NCBI GenBank assembly: GCA_903908065.1
Contig: CAIVQO010000077.1
Span: 37,381-101,380, forward strand
Source: an uncultured beta proteobacterium
Lineage (GTDB): Bacteria; Pseudomonadota; Gammaproteobacteria; Burkholderiales; Rhodocyclaceae
Length of the DNA: 64,000 bases
Direction of reading: 5' to 3'
Shown here piece after piece: positions 46,422-57,885 of the stretch. The notes under the pieces are model-generated. The model saw only the letters and a program-made list of their open reading frames with translations. It was not told where the DNA came from and made no database searches. How positions within the stretch are numbered: the first letter of the stretch is position 1; every line of letters starts with the position of its first letter. A program made the position numbers and the translations under genes.

Positions 46422-48395
46422 ATGACCGACACCCTGCCGCTGATCCTGCTGTTGCTCGCCGCCGCCGTGGTGGTGGTGGTGATCTTCCGCATGCTGGGCC
46501 TGCCGCCGATCATGGGCTACCTGCTGGTAGGCACGGTGGTCGGTCCGCATGCGGCCGGCTGGGTGCCCGACACCGAGCAGACGCGCCACCTGGCCGAGTT
46601 CGGCGTGGTGTTCCTGATGTTCAGCATCGGCCTCGAATTTTCGCTGGCGCGGCTTTACAGCATGAAGCGCATCGTCTTCGGCCTCGGCGCTGCGCAGGTG
46701 GTGGCGAGCACCCTGGTGGCCACGCTGCTGGCCCGCTTCGCCGGCATTCCCTGGCTGGCCGGGCTGGCCTTGGGCGGTGCGCTGGCCATGTCGTCCACCG
46801 CGATGCTGTCCAAGCTGCTGACCGAACGCGGCGAACTCGACGCGCCGCATGGCCGCGAGGTGATCGGCGTGCTGTTGTTCCAGGACATCGCCGTGGTGCC
46901 CCTGCTGGTGCTGATCCCGGCCCTGTCGCAGCCGGTCGAGGCGATGGCCGGGGCACTGCTGGTCGCGGCGCTGAAGGCGGGCGTACTGCTGGCCCTGGTG
47001 CTGGTGGTCGGCCAGCGCCTGCTCTCGGCCTGGTTCTACATGGTGGCGCGGCAGAAGTCGGCCGAGCTGTTCATGCTCAATGTGCTGTTGATCACCCTGG
47101 GCCTGGCCTGGCTTACCGAGTTGGCCGGGCTGTCGCTGGCGCTGGGCGCCTTCACTGCCGGCATGCTGATCGGCGAGACCGAGTATCGCTACCAGGTGGA
47201 AGAGGACATCAAGCCCTTCCGCGACGTGCTGCTCGGCCTCTTCTTCGTTGCCATCGGCATGCGCCTCGACGTGCCGCACATCCTCGACCAGTGGTGGCTG
47301 GTCGCGGCCATCCTGGTGGCGCTGCTGCTGCTCAAGCTGGCCGTGGTCGGCATTGCGTCGCGCCTGCTGGGGAGTTCGCCGGGTACCGCGCTGCGCAGCG
47401 CCCTGTGGCTGTGCGCGGGCGGCGAATTCGGCTTCGTCATCCTGGCCCGCGGCGGCGACGTCGGTCTGCTCGGCAGCGAGCTGCTGCAGCCGGTGCTGGC
47501 GGCCATGGTGCTCTCGCTGCTGCTGGCGCCGCTGATCGTGCACTTCTCGGAGCGCATCGTGTTCCGATTCGTCGCCTCGGAATGGTTGCTGCGCTCGATG
47601 CAGCTGACCCAACTCGCGGCGCAGAGCATGTCCACCGACAAACACGCCATCCTCTGCGGCTATGGCCGCACCGGTCAGCACCTGGCGCGCTTCCTCGAAG
47701 CCGAGGGCATTTCCTTCATGGCGCTCGACCTCGATCCGGAGCGGGTGCGCGAAGCCAATATCGCCGCCGAGCCGGTGTCGTACGGCGATGCCGCGCGCAA
47801 GGAAACCCTGCTCGCCGCCGGCCTGCCGCGGGCACGCGTGGTGGTGATCACCTTTGCCGACATCGATGCCGGCCTGCGTGTGGTGCATCGGGTGCGCGAA
47901 CTGCGCCCCGATGTCGCCATCGTGGCCCGTGCCCGTGAGCAGGATGACGTCGAAAAGCTTTACGCCGCCGGCGCTGCCGAGGTGGTCCCGGAGGCGCTGG
48001 AGTCCAGTGTGATGCTGGCGACGCACGCCCTGGCGCTGTCCGGAATCCCGATGCACAAGGTGATCAAGCGCCTGCGCGAAATGCGCGAACAGCACTACGC
48101 GTTGCTGCGTGGCTTCTTCCACGGCGCCACCGACGCCGGCGCCAACCTGGCCGATGCCGATCAGCCCCGACTGCACGCGGTGACTCTGACGCCCGGTGCG
48201 GCGGCGATCGGCAAGGCCGTGGGCGAGGTCGATCTGGCAGAAGTCGGCGCTGGCGCCACGGCGATACGCCGTCGCTCGCAGCGCGGCCTCAAGCTGGAAG
48301 CGGACCTGACGCTGATCGAGGGCGACGTGGTGGTATTGATCGGCACTGCGTCGGCCGTGACGGCCGGCGAGGAGCGGCTGCTGCGCGGCAAGTGA
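46422..48395 (+). CDS. Monovalent cation:proton antiporter-2 (KefB/KefC-like)
   Basis: A 657-residue CPA2 transporter. An N-terminal membrane domain of about 12 helices (to about 385, with GLEFSLARL and LFFVAIGMRLDV) is followed by an RCK/TrkA-N nucleotide-binding domain (ILCGYGRTGQHLARFLEAEG, about 410-520) and a TrkA-C domain (about 565-655). It probably exports potassium under ligand control. EVGAGATAIRR in TrkA-C is encoded by a repeat copy, and the length there is normal. I start at ATG 46422; ATG 46356 is also in frame but precedes a likely -10 (TATAGC). Confidence 0.93.
   Translation: MTDTLPLILLLLAAAVVVVVIFRMLGLPPIMGYLLVGTVVGPHAAGWVPDTEQTRHLAEFGVVFLMFSIGLEFSLARLYSMKRIVFGLGAAQVVASTLVATLLARFAGIPWLAGLALGGALAMSSTAMLSKLLTERGELDAPHGREVIGVLLFQDIAVVPLLVLIPALSQPVEAMAGALLVAALKAGVLLALVLVVGQRLLSAWFYMVARQKSAELFMLNVLLITLGLAWLTELAGLSLALGAFTAGMLIGETEYRYQVEEDIKPFRDVLLGLFFVAIGMRLDVPHILDQWWLVAAILVALLLLKLAVVGIASRLLGSSPGTALRSALWLCAGGEFGFVILARGGDVGLLGSELLQPVLAAMVLSLLLAPLIVHFSERIVFRFVASEWLLRSMQLTQLAAQSMSTDKHAILCGYGRTGQHLARFLEAEGISFMALDLDPERVREANIAAEPVSYGDAARKETLLAAGLPRARVVVITFADIDAGLRVVHRVRELRPDVAIVARAREQDDVEKLYAAGAAEVVPEALESSVMLATHALALSGIPMHKVIKRLREMREQHYALLRGFFHGATDAGANLADADQPRLHAVTLTPGAAAIGKAVGEVDLAEVGAGATAIRRRSQRGLKLEADLTLIEGDVVVLIGTASAVTAGEERLLRGK
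48241..48263 (+). repeat. Dispersed bipartite repeat, copy 11 (in Kef gene)
   Basis: AAGTCGGCGC-TGGCGCC-ACGGCG, exact; 23 bases identical to copies 8 and 10. It is read in sense as EVGAGATA. Confidence 0.85.
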
Positions 48396-48404
48396 GCTGC
48401 GGGT

Positions 48405-49889
48405 TCAGCGTCGCAGAAAACCATGCAGCCAGTGCCCGTCACGCTTGGCGAAATAATGCGGCGGAAAGCCGCCCAGCGCCTGCGGCGCCGTGAGCCGGGT
48501 ATCCGCGGGCCAGGAACGCCCGCCGAGGGCACGCTGGATTTCCAGCAGCGGGGTGATTGCGCCCAGCACGAACAACAGCAGGAGCAGTTTGCGCCCCGCG
48601 CCCGACAGGCCGCCGTCGGCGGCGGTTGCGGTCAGCGTATCCGCCAGCAACAGCCAGAGGATGGCCAGGGCGGGAATCGAGGCGCGCATCAGCAGGTCGT
48701 TGTTGGGGCCGAAGCGGGTCCAGGGCAGCACGAGCAGCAGGGCGACGACTCCCAGCGTCAGCGGCGAACGATCGTGCCTTAGCAGGACGGCGCAGAACAG
48801 AGCGACTTCGAGCAGGATGAAAAGCAGGGTGTTGCCAAGGCCTGCAGGCTGCCGCAGCACGGTGGCAGTGGTGGAGAGCGCGTTCGGTTCCACGGCGGGG
48901 CCGAACATCCCCAGGAGCAGGTAACTCGCGACGAGCGCGCCGGGCAGCGCTACCAGCGCCAGCGAAGTCAGCAGCATCCGTCGATTGCCCGCGCCGAGCA
49001 GGTGGTGCCAATGTTTCGCGGCGGCGATGGCGGCCAGCGGCAACAGGCCCAGGGCCACCAGCGGCGACCAGAGCATCAGCGGCAGGAACAGCATGGGCAG
49101 GCGCGCCAGGAAGCGTGTGTCATCGCGAAAGCGCCACAGCCAGGCGGCCGCGATCCAGCCCGGCAGGCCATGGTTGGGCACCCAGAACAGCAGCGTCGTG
49201 TTTGACGAGTACTGCATGCCCTCTGCCCACCACTCGATGTGCTGCATCGGCCAGGGCAGGCTGCCATGGCGCAGGAGCAGGCCGACGGCATCGAGGCCGC
49301 TGGCGAAGGCGAATATCAGGGCCGCAGCAAGTTTGCGCTGGCGGCTGCCGCCGAGGTTGGCGCCGAAGAACAGGGCGACGCCCAGCCAGGTCCAGACCAG
49401 CAGCAAGGAGTCGGCCAGGGCCAAGCTCGTGACATTGGTCAGCCAGGCGACGGGCAGGTAGTAGCTCAGCGGCGCGCGCAACAGCATCGTGGTGCCGCCA
49501 TCTTCATAGCGTGGCGGCCAGGCCTCCACCACCAGGTCGCGCAGTACGGCAAAGCGCGGCACCCAGTCGGTGCCGTTGGCGTGGAACAGGTGGCCGGCGC
49601 CACCGAGCATGGCCCAGGCTGCAGCGAATACGGCGAGCAGAAGCAGGTCGCCCAGCGGCGGAATTGCGATCTGTGGGTTGCGTCCGGCACCGGCCAGAAA
49701 GTGCAGCCCTCCGGCAAGCGCAAGCATGGCCAGCGGAAGTCCTACGGCGGGCACGAAAAATCCGGGCAGGAAGATCAGCATCGGCAGCAGCAGGTACGCC
49801 CACAAGACACTGTCGAGCGTTGACCAGTGCGGAGGGAGCAACGGCTCAGGGCCGGGTGCCGCTGTCTTCGTGGTACTCGTCATCGACAT
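48405..49889 (-). CDS. Polytopic membrane protein, GT-C-like, last gene of glycan operon
   Basis: A 494-residue inner-membrane protein with about 11-12 hydrophobic segments. After helix 2 or 3 comes [28 protein letters not shown], a loop with acidic and aromatic residues of the kind used by GT-C glycosyltransferases, then repeated amphipathic helices. No named family is recognised with certainty. The start at ATG 49889 overlaps the FAD gene by 44 bases; ATG 49883 or TTG 49841 are alternatives. The position after GtrA and a UDP-sugar-mutase-like gene suggests sugar transfer on the periplasmic side. Confidence 0.75.
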
Positions 49890-51417
49890 TGATGTCCCAG
49901 ATCGCCTGCTTGTCGCCGCTTCCGGAAAGGATGGCCTCGACCGCGCACTTGGCGGTCAGCATCGAATGGTCCTGGTTGTTGTAGCGGTGCATGCCGTTGC
50001 GCCCGACCAGGAACAGGTTGTCGACGTCATCGAGCCAGGCACGCAGGCGCGGAAACTCGGCGTAGGCCCCGAAGTAGCCGGGGTAGGTTTTGGGTACGCG
50101 CAGGACCGTGCCATCGAGCACGGCGGCGCGATCGATCATGCCGATGCGTTCCAGTTCGCCGGCGGCGAAGGCGATCATGGCCTCATCATCGAGCCGCCAC
50201 AGGTCGTCGCCTTCGTTGCAGAAATACTCGAGTCCCAGCCAGATGCGCCCGGGGTCGGCCACCAGGTCGGGGCTCCAGTTATTGAAGATCTGCAAGCGGC
50301 CGACGCGGACATCGCGCTCCTGAATGTAGATCCAGTTGTCGGGCGGCATGTGCTTCGGGTGCGCGCTGCTCGCGCGCGGGTTGGCGCGCATGCCGCTCAG
50401 CAGCAGGCCGACCGTGATGAAGTCGCGGTAGGGCAGGGCCGCGGCGATGGCGGCGATTTCCAGGGGTGGCGGCGGTTGCATGCCGGCGACCAGGTCCTTG
50501 ATCGGCATCGTGGAGATGACCTGCGTCGCCGGCAACTCGTGGCGGCATCCTGCCGCATCCAGCGTTTGTATGGCGACCACCTGACCCGCGTCTCGGCGCA
50601 GGCCGACGACGTGTTGCCCGAGGCGCACTTCGCCGCCGCCGGCGACGATGCGATCCGCCACTTCCCGCCACAGCTGGCCCGGACCCAGGCGGGGATAGAG
50701 GAACTGCTCGATCAGGCTGGTATTGCGTGCCGCGTCGTTGCGGCGTGGCCCCAGGCGCTGCTGCAGGGCGTGGCGCAGGGCGGCGACGACGGAGAGCCCC
50801 TTGATTCGTTGTGCCCCCCAGTCGGCCTTGATCTGTTTGCAGGGCACGCCCCAGACTTTTTCCGTGTAGTCCCTGAAGAAGGTTCGGTACAGCTCGGCGC
50901 CGAAGCGATTGATCAGAAAGTCTTCCAGCGTTCGTTCCGGGCGGCGCGGAAAAATGGCTGCGGCGAGGTAGCTGACACCGATCCGCAGCAGGCGCGACGG
51001 GCCAAGATTGCGCAGCGTATTGGCATTGAGGGTGATCGGGTAGTCGAAGTAGCGGCGCAGGAAATAAATGCGTGAAAGCCGCTTCCTGACCAGCAGGGCA
51101 CGGCCGTGGGCCGGAACCGCCGTGTCGTCGGCGCCGACTTTCCGTTGCCGGCTGCGATAGCTGATTGCGACTTCTGCCTGATCAGCGGCAATGGGCAGGA
51201 TCTCTCGCCACCAGTTCATCACCCAGTCGGACTTGGAGAAAAAACGGTGGCCGCCGATATCCATCCGGTTGCCCTTGTACTCGACGGTGCGCGAGAGGCC
51301 GCCGACATCGTCGCCGGCTTCCAGCACGATCGGTTGCATGCGCCCGTCGCGCACAAGTTCGAGTGCTGCGGTGAGTCCGGCGGGGCCGCCGCCGATGATG
51401 ATGACCGTGGGCTTCAT
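49846..51417 (-). CDS. FAD-dependent oxidoreductase, UDP-galactopyranose-mutase-like
   Basis: A 523-residue flavoprotein. [25 protein letters not shown] is the FAD-binding fold, [26 protein letters not shown] the typical UGM/amine-oxidase second motif, and [14 protein letters not shown] a segment shared with UGM-like proteins of polysaccharide loci. The C-terminal [25 protein letters not shown] binds the flavin. The reaction is unknown; it may be a sugar-nucleotide mutase or a lipid oxidoreductase. KVGADDTA is encoded by a repeat copy. It starts 4 bases after the gtrA stop. Confidence 0.85.
51118..51140 (-). repeat. Dispersed bipartite repeat, copy 12 (in FAD oxidoreductase gene)
   Basis: Minus strand, spacer CGACGAC, both half-sites exact. 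It is read in sense as KVGADDTA, in a loop before the conserved LSRIYF segment. Confidence 0.8.
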
Positions 51418-51421
51418 GCGC

Positions 51422-51790
51422 TCAGAATAAGGCCAGTTTTCGCGCAGTGTAGTTGAACAGGAAACTCGTGCCGGCGGCCAGTGCCTTGGCGGCGAGCAGA
51501 TCCAGCGCGAGGCGGTCGACCGTGACATAGATGACGAAGTCGTTGAGGGTGAGGCCGGCCAGGCCGATCGCAACGAAGGTGGAAAACTCCACGGGCGCGC
51601 GGTCGGCCAGTTTGCGCCGGCGAAACACCCAGCGCGTCGACAGGAAATAGATCGCACAGGTGCCGGCGATGAAGCCGAGTGACGCCGCCAGCAAGTAGTG
51701 CAACCAGTGGGCTGCCAACCACAGGATGGCGACATCGAGCGCAAGGGCGCCCAGGCTGGCCAGGAAATAGCGCGCGAACTCGGCTGGCAA
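51422..51790 (-). CDS. GtrA family membrane protein (polyprenyl-glycan flippase type)
   Basis: A 122-residue, four-helix GtrA protein: [40 protein letters not shown] and a final [13 protein letters not shown] are diagnostic. GtrA proteins flip polyprenyl-phosphate-linked sugars or support glycosyltransferases in O-antigen modification. It is hidden in a 441-residue track ORF whose upstream part is out-of-frame. I choose TTG 51790, with GGAG eight bases upstream, because no ATG or GTG is available at the right place. It begins 26 bases after the large membrane-protein gene. Confidence 0.85.
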
Positions 51791-51816
51791 GCGTAAGTCT
51801 CCAGGAATGGCAGCGT

Positions 51817-53649
51817 TTACGTCGCGGCTAGCGCCGATTCCGGCGTATTGGCGCGCAGTGCCTCGCAGCGGTAGAGGTACCAGGGCGACTGACGCAGCGG
51901 GTCGGACCAGGCCCGTGCGGCGAGGCCATCGATAGGCTGGGCGAGGATTGCGACATCCAGTGCCGGATCGCGGCAAAGTTCGCGCAATGCCGATTCCTGC
52001 TCGCGGGTTGTTCCGCTGCGGTTGCTTGCCGCGTCGAAGGCGTCGATGCGTTTCTGGCGTCGCGCCGATTCCATTGCCGCCGCACGCGAAAACAGCGCAC
52101 TGGCCCCCTGTTCCCGCGAGGCGTAGGCACTCTGGCGCAGGACAAACCATGTGTAGATCAGATTGCCTTGCCAATGCACGGTGTCCGTTCGGCCAATCGC
52201 GTCTCCGAAGGGACGGACCAGGGGTGACGAATAGGCGAATCTTTGTACGGCGTCGTCGGCCCGGTACCAGCCGGCGGCGGCGATGCCTGCCGCCAGTGCC
52301 ACTATTGCCAAGGCCACCCGTGGCCGCCGCGCTTGCAAGCGCAGCAGGAGCGCCATGCCCAGCGGCAGCAGCAGGGCGAGCGGCCCCTGGAAGTAGGCGG
52401 CGAGGTCCCCCTTGGGCATCAGGCTGTCGCCTGTCAGCATCTCGCCGATGCGCTGCAGTAGAAAGCCGACATGTTGGACTATCGCCAGCAAGGTTTCCAG
52501 CAGCGTTACGGCAAGTGCCAGGTATCCGGCAATCGGCAGCCAGCGCGGCAACTCGGGTGCCGTACCGTTGCGCCAGGCACGGTGGGCGATCAGGGCGAGC
52601 GCCAGCGCAGCCGGGCCGCCCAGGGTTTGCGCCGTCAGCGCGGCGATCGCCAGCCCCGCCAGCAACCAGCGGTCGGCCAGGGAACGTGGCCAGCGCTCGG
52701 CGAACATCGCTACCAGCGCCTGCAGGGCCGCAAGCTTGAGCAGCCACAGGCAGCGCCAGGGCTGTGCCTGGATCAACAGGGCGGCATGGCTGAAGGTGCC
52801 GAGCACGGCAAGGTAGTAACCAGCCGCGCCCGCCAGCGCGATGCAGTGCCAGGCGAGGCGCGCCTTTTCACTTGCGCCAGCCGAAGCCGCGAGCAGGATG
52901 CCGATCCAGGCCAGAGGCTCCGACAGTTCGCCCCAGGACCAAGTGTCGAGCATCACAAAACGGGCACGGCGGCGCACTTCCGCCAGCCAGGCAGGATCCA
53001 TCTCGGGCAACAGAAACGCGGAAATCGCGGCAATTGCCGCGATTGCGAGAGTGAGGCGTGCGCTGGGTCGTACCAGCCATGCCGCGAGGAAGATGGCCCC
53101 CGGCAGGGCAATGATCGGGTGGCAAAGAAAGGCCAGCGCCGTCGCTCCGATGGCAAGGTTGCGATGGCCGGCAAGTGCGGCAGCAACAGCGCCGAGTACC
53201 AGCGGCTCGGCCCAACTGCGGGCGGTGAAAAAGCTTTCTGCGTAACGCAGTATGTCGTGTGCCGCCTCTGCCTGCGAGCCATAGTGGCCGGGCAGAGCGA
53301 ATACCAATGCGAGACCGATCCAGAAGGCCGATCCCGAGAGCCAGTGGCGGGCCATCGCGGCGGCGGCTCCGGCCCAGGCCAGCTGGGCGACAAGCAACCC
53401 CGCGAGCGCGGCGCCGGACAGGCCCAGCAGACCGATCAACTGGGCGTAGACCCGGCTGAACAGGCTGTAGTCATCCTGCGAACCAAAGGCGAAGAAGATG
53501 TCGTGCGCAAAGGCCTCCGGCGTGTTGTGCGCCAGTGCCTGCACCGCGTAATACAGCCCGTCGTGCTGGATGCCGAAGTAACGGTGCGTGAGCAGCCAGA
53601 GTGCTGCCAGGCCGAGCATGGCCGTTACGTTGAATGAGCGGGATGGCAT
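51817..53649 (-). CDS. Large polytopic membrane protein, GT-C-like, first gene of glycan operon
   Basis: A 610-residue protein with about 12 membrane helices. The first periplasmic loop has FGIQHDGLYYAVQAL and FGSQDDYSLFSRVYAQ, acidic motifs compatible with a GT-C active site. The C-terminal 100 residues are soluble (NRSGTTREQESALRELCRDPALD) and would face the periplasm. I do not recognise a named family. The start is ATG 53649 (GTG 53658 possible), right after the pilin terminator, so it heads a four-gene operon with gtrA, the FAD gene and another membrane protein. Confidence 0.8.
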   Translation of the reverse strand: MPSRSFNVTAMLGLAALWLLTHRYFGIQHDGLYYAVQALAHNTPEAFAHDIFFAFGSQDDYSLFSRVYAQLIGLLGLSGAALAGLLVAQLAWAGAAAAMARHWLSGSAFWIGLALVFALPGHYGSQAEAAHDILRYAESFFTARSWAEPLVLGAVAAALAGHRNLAIGATALAFLCHPIIALPGAIFLAAWLVRPSARLTLAIAAIAAISAFLLPEMDPAWLAEVRRRARFVMLDTWSWGELSEPLAWIGILLAASAGASEKARLAWHCIALAGAAGYYLAVLGTFSHAALLIQAQPWRCLWLLKLAALQALVAMFAERWPRSLADRWLLAGLAIAALTAQTLGGPAALALALIAHRAWRNGTAPELPRWLPIAGYLALAVTLLETLLAIVQHVGFLLQRIGEMLTGDSLMPKGDLAAYFQGPLALLLPLGMALLLRLQARRPRVALAIVALAAGIAAAGWYRADDAVQRFAYSSPLVRPFGDAIGRTDTVHWQGNLIYTWFVLRQSAYASREQGASALFSRAAAMESARRQKRIDAFDAASNRSGTTREQESALRELCRDPALDVAILAQPIDGLAARAWSDPLRQSPWYLYRCEALRANTPESALAAT

Positions 53650-53661
53650 CCGCGGCACCAG

Positions 53662-53687
53662 AAAAAAAGCCCGCCGAAGCGGGCTTT
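53662..53687 (-). terminator. Rho-independent terminator of the pilin gene
   Basis: A perfect 9-bp stem AAAGCCCGC/GCGGGCTTT with a stable TTCG loop on the minus strand, followed by a T-run. It lies 25 bases after the pilin stop. Confidence 0.92.
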
Positions 53688-53711
53688 CAGTCGTGTATCG
53701 TCGAGCCGGAA

Positions 53712-54404
53712 TCAGAGGCCCATGCAGACGATGAAGGAGCTTGAGTCATCGACAGCGGTGGTTGCGACCGCTGCGCCGCCACGAGTATGCGTTGCGGTCA
53801 CGACACGCATGGAACCGGTGGCGGTGTTGCCATCGTCGAGCGTAGTGTCGAGCTGCTTGGCATACTTGCCAAGGATGCCGGTGGAACACATCAGATAGGT
53901 TGGGGTCATGCCGCTGATGTAGGCACCACCCGTTGCGGCGGAACCGCTTTCAATGCCCATGCGACCGCCGTCGGCATTCACCGGGAAATATTGCGCATCG
54001 CTCGTGGAGGTCGGGCCGGCAGCCAGTCCGGCAAGGCGAACATGCTGCCAAAACAGGGCAGTTTCATCGGTGGTCGTCGTCGTGTTCCAGGTGCCGTCGA
54101 TTACACCGTTGCCTTGGCAGAGGTTGCTGACACAGGCCGCGCCACCCGAGGTGGTTGGTGTGGTGGCCTTGGTCGAGCCGGTGATTGCGGTCGTGACCGT
54201 ATTATGGTCACCAGGAAGTGCCTTGTACTTGTCCTGATAGCCATAGATGAACAGTGGAATGTTGCGGAAGTCGGTGGCGAAGTTCTTCACCTTGGCGCTG
54301 TTGATGAGCTCCTGGCCTTTGAGCACGCCGCCCAGCAGCAGACCGATGATGACCAACACGATGGCGATTTCGACCAAGGTAAAACCTGCTTGTCTGGATT
54401 TCAT
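53712..54404 (-). CDS. Type IV pilin-like/pseudopilin protein
   Basis: A 230-residue prepilin. The leader MKSRQAG|FTLVEIAIVLVIIGLLLGG is cut by prepilin peptidase before Phe1, with the conserved Glu5. The body is Thr/Ser/Gly-rich, has three other Cys (two in ACVSNLC, one in LMCSTG), and ends with FIVCMGL, so a C-terminal disulfide loop is likely. It is longer than a major pilin (about 150), which suggests a minor pilin or adhesin-type pseudopilin. It is monocistronic, with a sigma-54-type promoter and its own terminator. No other pilus gene is adjacent. Confidence 0.88.
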   Translation of the reverse strand: MKSRQAGFTLVEIAIVLVIIGLLLGGVLKGQELINSAKVKNFATDFRNIPLFIYGYQDKYKALPGDHNTVTTAITGSTKATTPTTSGGAACVSNLCQGNGVIDGTWNTTTTTDETALFWQHVRLAGLAAGPTSTSDAQYFPVNADGGRMGIESGSAATGGAYISGMTPTYLMCSTGILGKYAKQLDTTLDDGNTATGSMRVVTATHTRGGAAVATTAVDDSSSFIVCMGL

Positions 54405-54457: not shown

Positions 54458-54580
54458 GTTATGTAATTTCTTAATAAACATATGGATGCAAAATATTGTT
54501 GCGATATGAAGGATTTGCATCTGTCGAATATTGAACAGGTTCGTCAGCTATTTGGCAGATGGTCGGGTGCCGCGCGTCAC

Positions 54581-54586
54581 TAGAAT
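54581..54586 (+). promoter_or_regulatory. Putative histidine-kinase promoter -10 box
   Basis: TAGAAT, 44 bases before TTG 54631. Its place downstream of ATG 54559 argues that 54559 is not the real start of the kinase. Confidence 0.35.
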
Positions 54587-54630
54587 CGGCTTATCTTCCC
54601 CTTGGTTCGCCTAGCCGGCCCGACTTAATC

Positions 54631-56355
54631 TTGGTGCCTTACCCAATTTCGGCATCGCTCCCGGCGCGCCTGGTTTCCCTGCGCCGAGGCCTGTTGCTGG
54701 CTCTGTTTGCGGCCCTGTACGTGGTTCTTTGGCAGGGGCCCGGCACCTTGTTCGGGCGTACCCTGTTCGTCGCCCATCTCGGCTTGTTCATTCTTTGGCA
54801 GCCCTTTGTCCATACCGGTCAGCGCCTGTCCCTGCCATCCTTGCTGGCAGTCCTGACGGTAGCCCTGCTGGCGGGAATTTATCTCAAGGGCTGGATGATC
54901 ACGATGTGGATCATGATGCTGGCGGGAATCGTTGGCGGCAAGGTCCTGCTCTACGATACCCGTGCAGCACGGTTGTTTTACCTGCTTGCCCTGGCCTTCC
55001 TGGTGCTTGCGCTGACGCTGCTTGCAGCGCCTCTGACGGTCCCCCAGGCCAAGCCACCCGTCGAGATCGTCTGGTTGGGCCATGCCAGCCTTCTTTGCCT
55101 GCTGGTGGTAATGGCACTTCTGCCCCAGGGGCAGGAAGTCGATGGCGCGCGTGAAGTGGTCGATTTCGTTTACAGCTTGTTCATTTTTCTGCTGCTGACG
55201 GTGTTGATGCTGGGCAGCCTGGCGGCGATGCTGCTGCTCGGCAGCGGTTATGTCGAGGCACTGCTGCAGACCATGCTGGTGACGGGCGTGGTGTTGATGC
55301 TACTTGGCGTGGTGGCGAATCCGCGCTCCGGATTTGCCGGTATCGGTGGCTTGATCTCGCGCTACTTGATGTCGATCGGCCTGCCGGTGGAACAATGGCT
55401 GCAAGCCTTGTCCAACCTCGCCCTGGAAGAGGAAGACCCACACGCATTCCTGGAAAAGGCTTGCGTCGAGATCGCGCAACGCCTGCCCTGGGTCAAGGGG
55501 GGCGAATGGATCGCGGGCGGCAGTCGCGGCAGTTTCGGAGTGTCCAGCGGTCGCCGCTGGGAGTTCAGTCATGGTGGTCTGGTCCTGGTGTTGTTCACTC
55601 AACATGCACCGTCGCCCACACTGATCTGGCATTACAACCTCCTTGCCCAGTTGCTGGCGCAGTTCCATGCTGACAAGCAGCGGGCGCAGGCGCTCAGGCA
55701 ACTTTCCTACATGCGGGCGATTCACGAGACCGGGGCGCGCTTGACGCACGATGTGAAGAACCTGCTGCAATCGCTGAACACACTTTGTTCTGCCGGCATT
55801 GAGCCGGACGCCGAGGCCTCACCGGAGTACCAGTCGCTGCTGCGGCGTCAGCTGCCGGCGATTACCGATCGGCTTGCCGAGACCCTGGCCAAGCTCAATG
55901 CGCCACAAGGCAGTTCGGCGCTGCGGTGGATTGAGGCTGGCGAATGGTGGCGTGAGCAGACGCAGCGCCTGGCGGCGCTGGACTGGGTTGAGCTTCGCAG
56001 CGAAGGGGAACTGGAGGGCGAGTTGCCCCTGGAGGTGTATTCCGGGGTGCTCGACAATCTCCTGCGCAATGCCGCTGAAAAGCACCTGCGCGAACCGGGA
56101 CTCAAGTTGGCGTTGGCCTTCGGGGGACCTTCTGACGGACATGAACTGACCGTGACTGACGATGGTTCCGCCATCGGGGCTTCCATTGCGGCCGCCTTAT
56201 TCATCGGGCCGGTGTCATCGGAAAGCGGCTATGGCATTGGCCTGTATCAGGCAGCTCGCCATGCCGAGGCGGCCGGTTACAGGCTGGAGCTTGCCGAGAA
56301 TAGGGATGGCTGCGTCAGATTTCTCCTGGGCAAGACGGTATCGATGCCAGGCTGA
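54631..56355 (+). CDS. Membrane sensor histidine kinase
   Basis: About 574 residues. Seven or eight N-terminal helices (to about residue 235) are followed by a GAF-like stretch (about 260-360) and a kinase core. The phospho-acceptor is His373 in LTHDVKNLLQSL, an HDxKN-type H-box like that of PrsK-class kinases rather than HExxxP. LDNLLRNAAEKH is the N-box and SGYGIGLYQA the G-box. The start is uncertain: ATG 54559 (track), TTG 54631 or GTG 54634. No response regulator is adjacent. It is divergent from the pilin gene and converges on the cyclase. Confidence 0.8.
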   Translation: MVPYPISASLPARLVSLRRGLLLALFAALYVVLWQGPGTLFGRTLFVAHLGLFILWQPFVHTGQRLSLPSLLAVLTVALLAGIYLKGWMITMWIMMLAGIVGGKVLLYDTRAARLFYLLALAFLVLALTLLAAPLTVPQAKPPVEIVWLGHASLLCLLVVMALLPQGQEVDGAREVVDFVYSLFIFLLLTVLMLGSLAAMLLLGSGYVEALLQTMLVTGVVLMLLGVVANPRSGFAGIGGLISRYLMSIGLPVEQWLQALSNLALEEEDPHAFLEKACVEIAQRLPWVKGGEWIAGGSRGSFGVSSGRRWEFSHGGLVLVLFTQHAPSPTLIWHYNLLAQLLAQFHADKQRAQALRQLSYMRAIHETGARLTHDVKNLLQSLNTLCSAGIEPDAEASPEYQSLLRRQLPAITDRLAETLAKLNAPQGSSALRWIEAGEWWREQTQRLAALDWVELRSEGELEGELPLEVYSGVLDNLLRNAAEKHLREPGLKLALAFGGPSDGHELTVTDDGSAIGASIAAALFIGPVSSESGYGIGLYQAARHAEAAGYRLELAENRDGCVRFLLGKTVSMPG

Positions 56356-56359
56356 CCTA

Positions 56360-57688
56360 TCAGGAGAGCGCAACCGGAGTGCTTTGGTCTCCGCTTTGAG
56401 GCTCACTGCCTTTGCGGCCGATCAGGCGATACACCGTCATGTTGCCCTTGCCCTTGAGGTAAATCGTCTGCGGCTCATGAAAGTCGAAATTGGCCGACAG
56501 TCGATGATAGGTCATGGTGTCGCACTGGATCATGCCAGGGACGCCTTCGGAGGTGATGCGGCTGGCGATATTGACGGTATCGCCCCACAGGTCATAGATG
56601 AACTTCTTTTTACCCAGCACGCCGGCTACGATGGGTCCCGTGCCGATGCCGATGCGAACTTCGAGGTGGGATGCGTTGATCGAGAAATCGCGCCGCAATA
56701 AATCGCGCATGGCGATTGCCATGTCGGCAACGGCGGCGGAGTAGTCGGAGAGGTCTTCGTTCAGGCCGCCGGCAACCATGTAGGCGTCGCCGATGGTCTT
56801 GATCTTTTCCAGGCCAAACTCTTCGGCCAGTTCGTCGAAGGCGGAAAAAATCCGGTTCAGCATCGCAAAGACCTGCGACGGCGACATGTTGGCCGCGACC
56901 TGTGTGAAATTGACGATGTCGGCAAACATCACTGTGACATCGGCAAACCCGTCGGCGATGGTCTTGTCCGAGCTGCGCAGCCGATCAGCGATCGGTTCCG
57001 GCAGGATGTTGAGGAGCAGCTTTTCCGAACGCTCCTGCTCGATCTTGATCTGCTGGTGGGCAACTTCGAGGCTCTTGTGCATCTTGCGGTTCATGCCGAT
57101 GGAAAGCCGCAGTAGAAGGAAGATGATGACCGAGAAGGCGATGAAGTTAATGGCAAAAAAAACGATGGTGGTACGCGTCGGTACGATGGGCTTCGGCGTG
57201 AAGATCGGATCTGCCAGATACCAGTCGGCGAGGCCGGAGATCGCGGTGAGAACTACCCAGGCGGCAAACCAGCCAACGGACTGCCTTACCCCGATGCAAA
57301 GGATGGCCCCGATCGGGGCGAGCAATGCCCAGAGCAGGACTCCGCTGCTGGAAATGATGTCGCTGCTCCATTGGGCGACAAAGGGCAGGAAAAGGAACAG
57401 TCCGAGCTGGCTGACGCGGAAATAGTCGAAGTTTCGCGTGCGCAGGTAGATCAGCATGTTGCCGGCCAGCAAGAGCTGGAAGACCAGCGGCATGGTGGCG
57501 GAGAATACCGGGCCCAGTGTCCAATAAATTGCCACCCACAAAACAATGGCCACGCTGGCGAGGCCGGTCGCCAGCATCAGCAGCGACTTGTTGAGTTTGA
57601 GCTCCTCGCTGTCAGTTGCTTCGATGCCGGCATTGCGCAGCCGATCCATGAAGCTGTCGCCGGGGCTTGGGGATTCGAGCTTGCTCAT
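56360..57688 (-). CDS. Class III adenylate cyclase, membrane anchored
   Basis: A 442-residue protein: five or six membrane helices (about 40-215), a short coiled linker (KMHKSLEVAHQQIKIEQERSEKLLLNILP), then the catalytic domain. Metal-binding Asp residues are in VMFADIVNFT and KTIGDAYMV. IKTIGD and YDLWGDTVNIASR fit an adenine-specific enzyme (Lys and Asp), so cAMP is the likely product. The start at ATG 57688 (MSKLESPSPG) replaces the longer track start. A protein kinase with a cyclic-nucleotide domain is encoded 2 kb away and may be a target. Confidence 0.9.
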   Translation of the reverse strand: MSKLESPSPGDSFMDRLRNAGIEATDSEELKLNKSLLMLATGLASVAIVLWVAIYWTLGPVFSATMPLVFQLLLAGNMLIYLRTRNFDYFRVSQLGLFLFLPFVAQWSSDIISSSGVLLWALLAPIGAILCIGVRQSVGWFAAWVVLTAISGLADWYLADPIFTPKPIVPTRTTIVFFAINFIAFSVIIFLLLRLSIGMNRKMHKSLEVAHQQIKIEQERSEKLLLNILPEPIADRLRSSDKTIADGFADVTVMFADIVNFTQVAANMSPSQVFAMLNRIFSAFDELAEEFGLEKIKTIGDAYMVAGGLNEDLSDYSAAVADMAIAMRDLLRRDFSINASHLEVRIGIGTGPIVAGVLGKKKFIYDLWGDTVNIASRITSEGVPGMIQCDTMTYHRLSANFDFHEPQTIYLKGKGNMTVYRLIGRKGSEPQSGDQSTPVALS

Positions 57689-57885
57689 CTGAAGATTCTG
57701 CGCCGGGACGTCGTTAGCCAATTGATTTGCATTGGCGAAGTGTCGCGGAATCGCCAGCAATGGTCAAGAATCATGGCATCGAAATCGGGGGGCGGGTCGC
57801 CGGCCAGGCGCTGCGGCGCCCGCCACGCTCGGGAATCCTGATCTGCCTTGCCCGCTCGGGAGAATTGGTGTTCAATGCGGCCCAT

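Follow-up and report, generated by a model that had tools for sequence, protein, structure and literature searches.

Four genes follow one another on the minus strand of the window, that is, the whole stretch of 64,000 nucleotides of an uncultured Rhodocyclaceae bacterium analysed in this study. These are gene 1 (51817..53649, 610 aa), gene 2 (51422..51790, 122 aa, TTG start), gene 3 (49846..51417, 523 aa) and gene 4 (48405..49883, 492-494 aa, polytopic). They encode, respectively, a proposed pilin-specific glycosyltransferase of the GT-C fold, a small membrane protein of the GtrA family proposed to flip a lipid-linked sugar, a flavoprotein resembling UDP-galactopyranose mutase (UGM) and proposed as a pyranose-furanose mutase, and a candidate second periplasmic transferase. 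The gaps of 26 and 4 bases and the overlap of 44 bases that had been read from the sequence were recovered at these coordinates, and the same spacing was kept in two genomes of the same genus (G425 and G557). The dN/dS values across the four genes in these three genomes ranged from 0.12 to 0.36, and the four reading frames are therefore regarded as conserved coding genes. The reading frame of gene 4 opens at 49889, but this first ATG is replaced by ACG or ATA in relatives and only the ATG two codons further on (49883) is conserved; the overlap between genes 3 and 4 is therefore probably 38 bases, not 44. The start of gene 2 at 51790 is backed by relatives. A search for plasmids found none.

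Insertion of the genes behind a core pilin

A pilin gene (53712..54404, minus strand) is located immediately upstream of gene 1. The encoded protein of 230 aa carries an N-terminal methylation motif (PF07963, E 1.3e-7) and is the proposed acceptor. A strong Rho-independent terminator (53665..53688, minus strand; GAAAGCCCGC-TTCG-GCGGGCTTTT followed by a T run), absent from the earlier description, separates the pilin from gene 1, so that gene 1 lies directly 3' of the pilin and its terminator on the same strand, as in pilin-accessory cassettes. On the other side of the pilin, a divergent membrane histidine kinase (54559..56355, plus strand) has a PrsK-like C-terminus (TIGR02916, E 1.8e-10, below cutoff). 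The site is closed by a convergent gene for a KefB-like Na/H exchanger with TrkA domains (46422..48395, plus strand; PF00999, PF02254).

The pilin is a core gene of the family, mostly in single copy; 83 of the 101 genomes of the family contain a homologue, and its neighbours are the same in relatives. The order lptA-lptC-kdsC-kdsD, kefB, pilin, histidine kinase and cyclase is common to the family. Between pilin and kefB, nothing was found in three genomes (G069, G019 and G020), gene 1 alone in three others (G390, G626 and G604), and all four genes in this genome, G425 and G557; kefB is directly 3' of the pilin at three loci without the cassette (L227, L230 and L231). As the site is empty or holds only gene 1 in other members of the family, the four genes are interpreted as an accessory block inserted behind a core pilin. 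The histidine kinase accompanies the pilin with or without the cassette, and is thus not a member of it. Two further genomes (G001, where small ORFs lie close to a masked stretch, and G073) hold accessory DNA of another kind at this site; it was unrelated to the cassette and was set aside.

The terminator is also present at an empty site (L227); it therefore belongs to the pilin and did not evolve for the cassette. In other genera, most pilins upstream of the cassette are likewise followed by a terminator, L067 being one of the exceptions. About 16 bases separate the T run of the terminator from the start of gene 1, leaving this gene little room for a promoter of its own, and no sigma-70-like site was found. 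Gene 1 is therefore probably expressed by read-through from the pilin promoter, which would give little enzyme for much pilin.

The pilin itself (window 53712-54404, compared with those of L186 and L190) shares 63% identity with its counterpart in the close relative G425, in which the flanking genes are 88-97% identical, and 91% with the pilin of the more distant G604; the gene therefore seems to have been exchanged or diversified between strains. The PrsK-like histidine kinase and the adenylate/guanylate cyclase (window 54559-57760) are core neighbours of the pilin and are perhaps its regulators.

Predicted functions of the four genes

Gene 1 matched no Pfam or NCBIfam family; a comparison of 36 members with Pfam yielded one spurious match and nothing credible, and PDB sequence profiles gave spurious glycerol-facilitator matches or none for genes 1 and 4. 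Structure prediction, which had been named as a check for a GT-C fold, was informative for this protein. The AlphaFold2 model built from 36 sequences reached a pLDDT of 88 and a pTM of 0.89, and the leading Foldseek matches in the PDB were all GT-C enzymes, namely, ArnT (probability 1.00), AglB, AftA, ALG12, ALG9 and PimE, with a best E-value of just 4.5e-3. Gene 1 is classed as a predicted GT-C protein by fold only; the E-values are weak and the agreement on fold class is clear. Two aspartates, D30 and D50, are invariant in the 36 homologues and lie right after the first helix (residues 2-21), thereby supplying the acidic residue that GT-C enzymes conserve in their first periplasmic loop. A class-level search for gene 1 found none outside the family, from which no absence is claimed because few candidates were scored per genome.

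Gene 2 matched GtrA (PF04138) over its full length (E 3.4e-17; 61-63 bits against a cutoff of 26.1), which bears out its earlier assignment to the GtrA type. GtrA and GT-C proteins are classical components of O-antigen side-chain systems.

Gene 3 belongs to NCBIfam NF005546 (the PRK07208 group, E 4.8e-223), and its profile aligns over the full length with solved UGMs (E 1.2e-24). Active-site residues were mapped from the UGM of Aspergillus fumigatus on a HMMER alignment, with a numbering offset of 3 confirmed by the position of R327, and were then checked in 88 sequences. Equivalents of H63, F66, Y104, F158, W167, R182, W315, Y317, R327, Y453 and N457 are invariant in 88/88 homologues, gaps apart, so the active-site His, Tyr and Trp and the two diphosphate-binding Arg of UGM are all present. 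The bacterial-type F-x3-YT-x3-W motif is also invariant, and the position of N163 is occupied by Thr, as in bacterial UGM. Equivalents of F106 and Q107 are not conserved; Q107 lies at the uridine site of the A. fumigatus enzyme, and the nucleotide, or even the carrier, used by gene 3 may therefore differ. Against TIGR00031, gene 3 scored 21 bits, below the cutoff of 303.75. Judged by sequence, gene 3 is UGM-like and not a UGM in the sense of the curated models (TIGR00031 and PF03275). No classical Glf (PF03275) and no DprE1-type oxidase (PF04030) were found in this genome, which leaves gene 3 as its only UGM-type candidate. The original call of a UGM-like flavoprotein thus holds, with full-length homology and an intact active site. 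This active site is consistent with the furanose product that had been suggested, whereas the identity of the sugar is putative. Genes 1 and 3 co-occur strongly (9 and 11 carrier genomes of 101, 8 in common; Fisher p 7e-9).

The PRK07208 flavoproteins are widespread, with at least 569 loci in many phyla. A search of the accessible literature on PRK07208, polyprenyl-linked galactofuranose and pilin galactofuranose found nothing relevant. The UGM active site was kept in the members that were checked, and UGM-like mutase is the name they should carry instead of 'hypothetical protein'.

Gene 4 has about 10 hydrophobic segments, with D108, W109, R112 and D118 conserved. Both large membrane proteins had been described as GT-C-like with acidic first loops. 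This description stands for gene 1, but in gene 4 the acidic loop follows not the first hydrophobic segment but the second or third. A search of Pfam with 9 members gave no family, NCBIfam gave nothing credible, PDB sequence profiles gave no match, and a model predicted from only 3 sequences reached a pLDDT of 43. A profile comparison found genes 1 and 4 to be unrelated. Gene 4 is left unclassified, with a candidate role as a second periplasmic transferase suggested by its hydrophobic segments, its conserved residues and its gene neighbourhoods, in which its homologues usually adjoin a GtrB/PgfS-like GT2.

Proposed supply of a lipid-linked donor

The observation that the operon includes no GT2 held for the window. 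The GtrB-type GT2 that marks the operons of Gtr (O-antigen) systems is thus missing here, and GT2 is encoded only in trans in this genome. In several relatives, the gene next to gene 3 or GtrA encodes a GT2 that resembles AglJ, PpgS and ArnC. No orthologue of this GT2 was found in a search of this genome; one weak match (L129) was rejected as ArnC-like by its neighbours. A GtrB/PgfS/ArnC-like GT2 is located on another contig (C91:22510-23472) beside a paralogue of gene 4. It recurs at 91-93% identity in the two relatives whose cassettes also contain gene 4 and is missing from the four remaining genomes of the comparison; the gene 4 paralogue next to it confounds this distribution. The GT2 found beside gene 4 homologues gives a PgfS score that stays below the cutoff. 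The idea of a complete system is therefore only partly sustained: the putative mutase, GtrA and the predicted GT-C gene are present in the cassette, but the GT2 must come from elsewhere.

The C91 region of this genome (L027) constitutes a second pilus-type locus, with a PilA-C-like small protein, an ABC transporter, NeuB-like and thiamine-diphosphate enzymes, an FkbM methyltransferase, the GT2 and the gene 4 paralogue. It is probably a pathway for another pilin or surface sugar.

Association of gene 1 with pilins across genomes

The first sample comprised 80 loci found by gene 3 (L049-L128), among which 30 had a gene 1 homologue and 50 had none. A pilin was present in 19/30 loci with gene 1 and in 1/50 without it (p 8e-10); the 11 gene 1 loci without a detected pilin include some contig ends. 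Since taxonomy confounds this comparison, a second sample was taken, in which 20 loci retrieved with gene 1 were set against 20 regions elsewhere in the same genomes; one of the loci (L195) repeats a record of the first set. Pilins were present in 19/20 gene 1 loci and 1/20 control regions (p 6e-9).

The same-strand order pilin, gene 1, GtrA and gene 3 was detected in Casimicrobiaceae (L053), Burkholderiaceae (L062) and Methylococcaceae (L086), and with two gene 1 copies in Thiobacillus (L061) and Silvimonas terrae (L066), in the latter of which gene 4 follows gene 3. Together with the recurrence of the whole block at the same spacing within the genus, this provides the neighbourhood conservation that had been proposed as a check. 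Over the 51 labelled tips of the gene 1 tree, the nearest pilin switches class 4 times, against a mean of 20 and a minimum of 15 when labels were shuffled. In four genomes (G046, G390, G626 and G604), a single gene 3 is combined with two copies of gene 1 from different clades; one copy adjoins the core pilin and the other a PilA-N-type pilin. Acceptor-specific transferases sharing one donor would look like this. The agreement between tree and pilin class could instead reflect the co-inheritance of neighbours. The suggestion that the upstream pilin is the acceptor gains strong comparative support from the control comparison, the tree and the insertion behind the pilin.

Several other features recur around gene 1. 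Loci with PilA-N-type pilins (L031, L036, L192-L194, L196 and others) repeatedly contain an ABC transporter, a GAF-HD-GYP protein, a GAF-PilB-like ATPase and a TPR protein with a GT41 (O-GlcNAc-transferase-like) domain. In three pilin loci (L032, L036 and L203), gene 1 adjoins the gene of a Wzy_C membrane protein (O-antigen ligase family), possibly a TfpO/PglL-like pilin oligosaccharyltransferase. Gene 1 pairs, in tandem or separated by GtrA, are present in single loci (L061, L066, L070, L071 and L034) and suggest two sequential transfers on one pilin.

Proposed pathway and alternative explanations

The four genes are best explained as a pilin-accessory glycosylation cassette behind a core pilin, in which gene 3 provides a furanose donor and gene 1 transfers the sugar to the pilin; we regard this reading as probable. 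We infer a pathway in which gene 3, acting as a reduced-flavin mutase, would contract a UDP-hexopyranose to a UDP-hexofuranose, as its intact UGM active site suggests. In the chemistry of UGM, N5 of the reduced flavin attacks the anomeric carbon, and the ring is contracted (PMC7662398). A GT2 encoded elsewhere, such as the PgfS/ArnC-like protein on C91, would then load the sugar on undecaprenyl phosphate, and GtrA, as expected of its family, would flip the lipid-linked sugar to the periplasm. Gene 1, with its predicted fold, would link the sugar to the pilin in the inner membrane, the acceptor being indicated by comparative genomics. Gene 4 might add a second sugar or act on a second site. The earlier guess of a furanose-type sugar system acting on the upstream pilin is largely supported by the gene 1 fold, the gene 3 active site and the pilin association.

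Part of this scheme could be wrong without affecting the cassette or its acceptor. Gene 3 may act on a polyprenyl-phosphate-linked sugar or catalyse another flavin reaction, and the sugar then need not be a furanose. PRK07208 is a branch separate from Glf, the F106 and Q107 positions have diverged, and GtrA neighbours in many loci suggest work on a membrane lipid; however, all tested catalytic and diphosphate-contact residues are invariant, as is the F-x3-YT-x3-W motif, and we consider this version unlikely. An alternative acceptor is LPS or another surface polysaccharide (O antigen or core), modified in the manner of Gtr systems, with the adjacency of the pilin incidental. GtrA with a GT-C protein is the classical pairing of O-antigen side-chain systems (PMC11127046), and lptA, lptC, kdsC and kdsD lie just past the KefB gene. 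These LPS genes, however, belong to the core surroundings of the pilin site whether or not the cassette is present, and gene 1 elsewhere adjoins PilA-type pilins in unrelated neighbourhoods, with a tree that tracks pilin class; modification of LPS therefore seems quite unlikely to us. Modification of the pilin with D-arabinofuranose by a TfpW-type enzyme through the DPPR/DprE1/DprE2 route would also fit the layout, as TfpW is a GT-C enzyme whose gene follows a pilin and its terminator (PMC11841053). This route is very improbable here, as the genome has no DprE1-type (PF04030) gene and the sugar enzyme of the cassette is of the UGM type, not DprE1, UbiA or a phosphatase.

A broader reading of the glycosylation cassette is that it represents a second, independently evolved furanosylation of type IV pilins. 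The sugar would pass from a UGM-type mutase (not DprE1/DprE2) to undecaprenyl phosphate, GtrA and a new pilin-specific GT-C family, with each pilin served by its own transferase and a shared donor pathway. We put this forward tentatively, at somewhat less than an even chance.

Pilin glycans shield pili from phages and antibodies. To our knowledge, pili bearing furanose-type sugars have been described in few bacteria, and no more than a handful of the enzymes that attach pilin glycans have been identified. The cassette appears to be a separately evolved, uncharacterised route to pili with an unusual, probably five-membered-ring sugar. Our analysis predicts an unnamed family of pilin glycosyltransferases in several proteobacterial groups and offers a likely function for a large flavoprotein group labelled 'hypothetical'. 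Cultured environmental carriers include Silvimonas terrae DSM 18233, Caldimonas manganoxidans ATCC BAA-369 and Tepidimonas fonticaldi. If the proposal is true, one small operon would unite a mutase, a flippase and a periplasmic transferase, making it a useful unit for glyco-engineering.

Comparison with known systems

By analogy, the locus would combine the workings of a pilin-accessory glycosyltransferase cassette with those of a Gtr-type donor pathway that includes a mutase. In the pilA-tfpO and pilA-tfpW loci of Pseudomonas and others, the pilin gene is followed by a Rho-independent terminator and a membrane glycosyltransferase gene (PMC11841053), and TfpW is a GT-C enzyme that adds D-arabinofuranose (PMC11841053, PMC12369383). 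The same layout is present here, but the transferase is accompanied by donor genes for GtrA and a UGM-like mutase, the genome has no gene of the DprE1 type, and gene 1 is likened to TfpW by layout and predicted fold. Gtr systems comprise the GtrA flippase, the Und-P-sugar synthase GtrB and a serotype-specific GT-C, and the lipid-linked monosaccharide is used in the periplasm (PMC11127046). They share the pair of GtrA and GT-C, known here from genes and a predicted fold, whereas the present GT2 lies outside the operon, a UGM-like flavoprotein is added, and the linkage is to pilins rather than O-antigen loci.

In the Pgf system of Streptococcus mutans (pgfS-pgfM1-pgfE-pgfM2), the gene of the modified surface protein adjoins genes for a GT2, an enzyme that modifies the sugar and a pair of large membrane proteins, and cnm-pgfS is co-transcribed through an intervening terminator (PMC5856776). 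A putative sugar-modifying enzyme, two large membrane proteins and a terminator after the putative acceptor gene are present here too; Pgf, in contrast, serves Gram-positive adhesins, uses a UDP-glucose epimerase instead of a mutase and has no GtrA. Gene 3 shares full-length homology and invariant active-site residues with eukaryotic and bacterial Glf/UGM, but it lacks PF03275, lies below the TIGR00031 cutoff, differs at the F106 and Q107 equivalents and has another genetic context. The three-component pentofuranose systems of GT136 combine a lipid-linked furanose donor, a flippase and a GT-C, with a polyprenyl phosphoribose synthase and a MATE flippase (PMC11127046). The proposed cassette resembles them in its putative lipid-linked furanose donor, flippase and GT-C transferase, and differs in using GtrA and a UGM-type mutase in place of the MATE flippase and the polyprenyl phosphoribose synthase.
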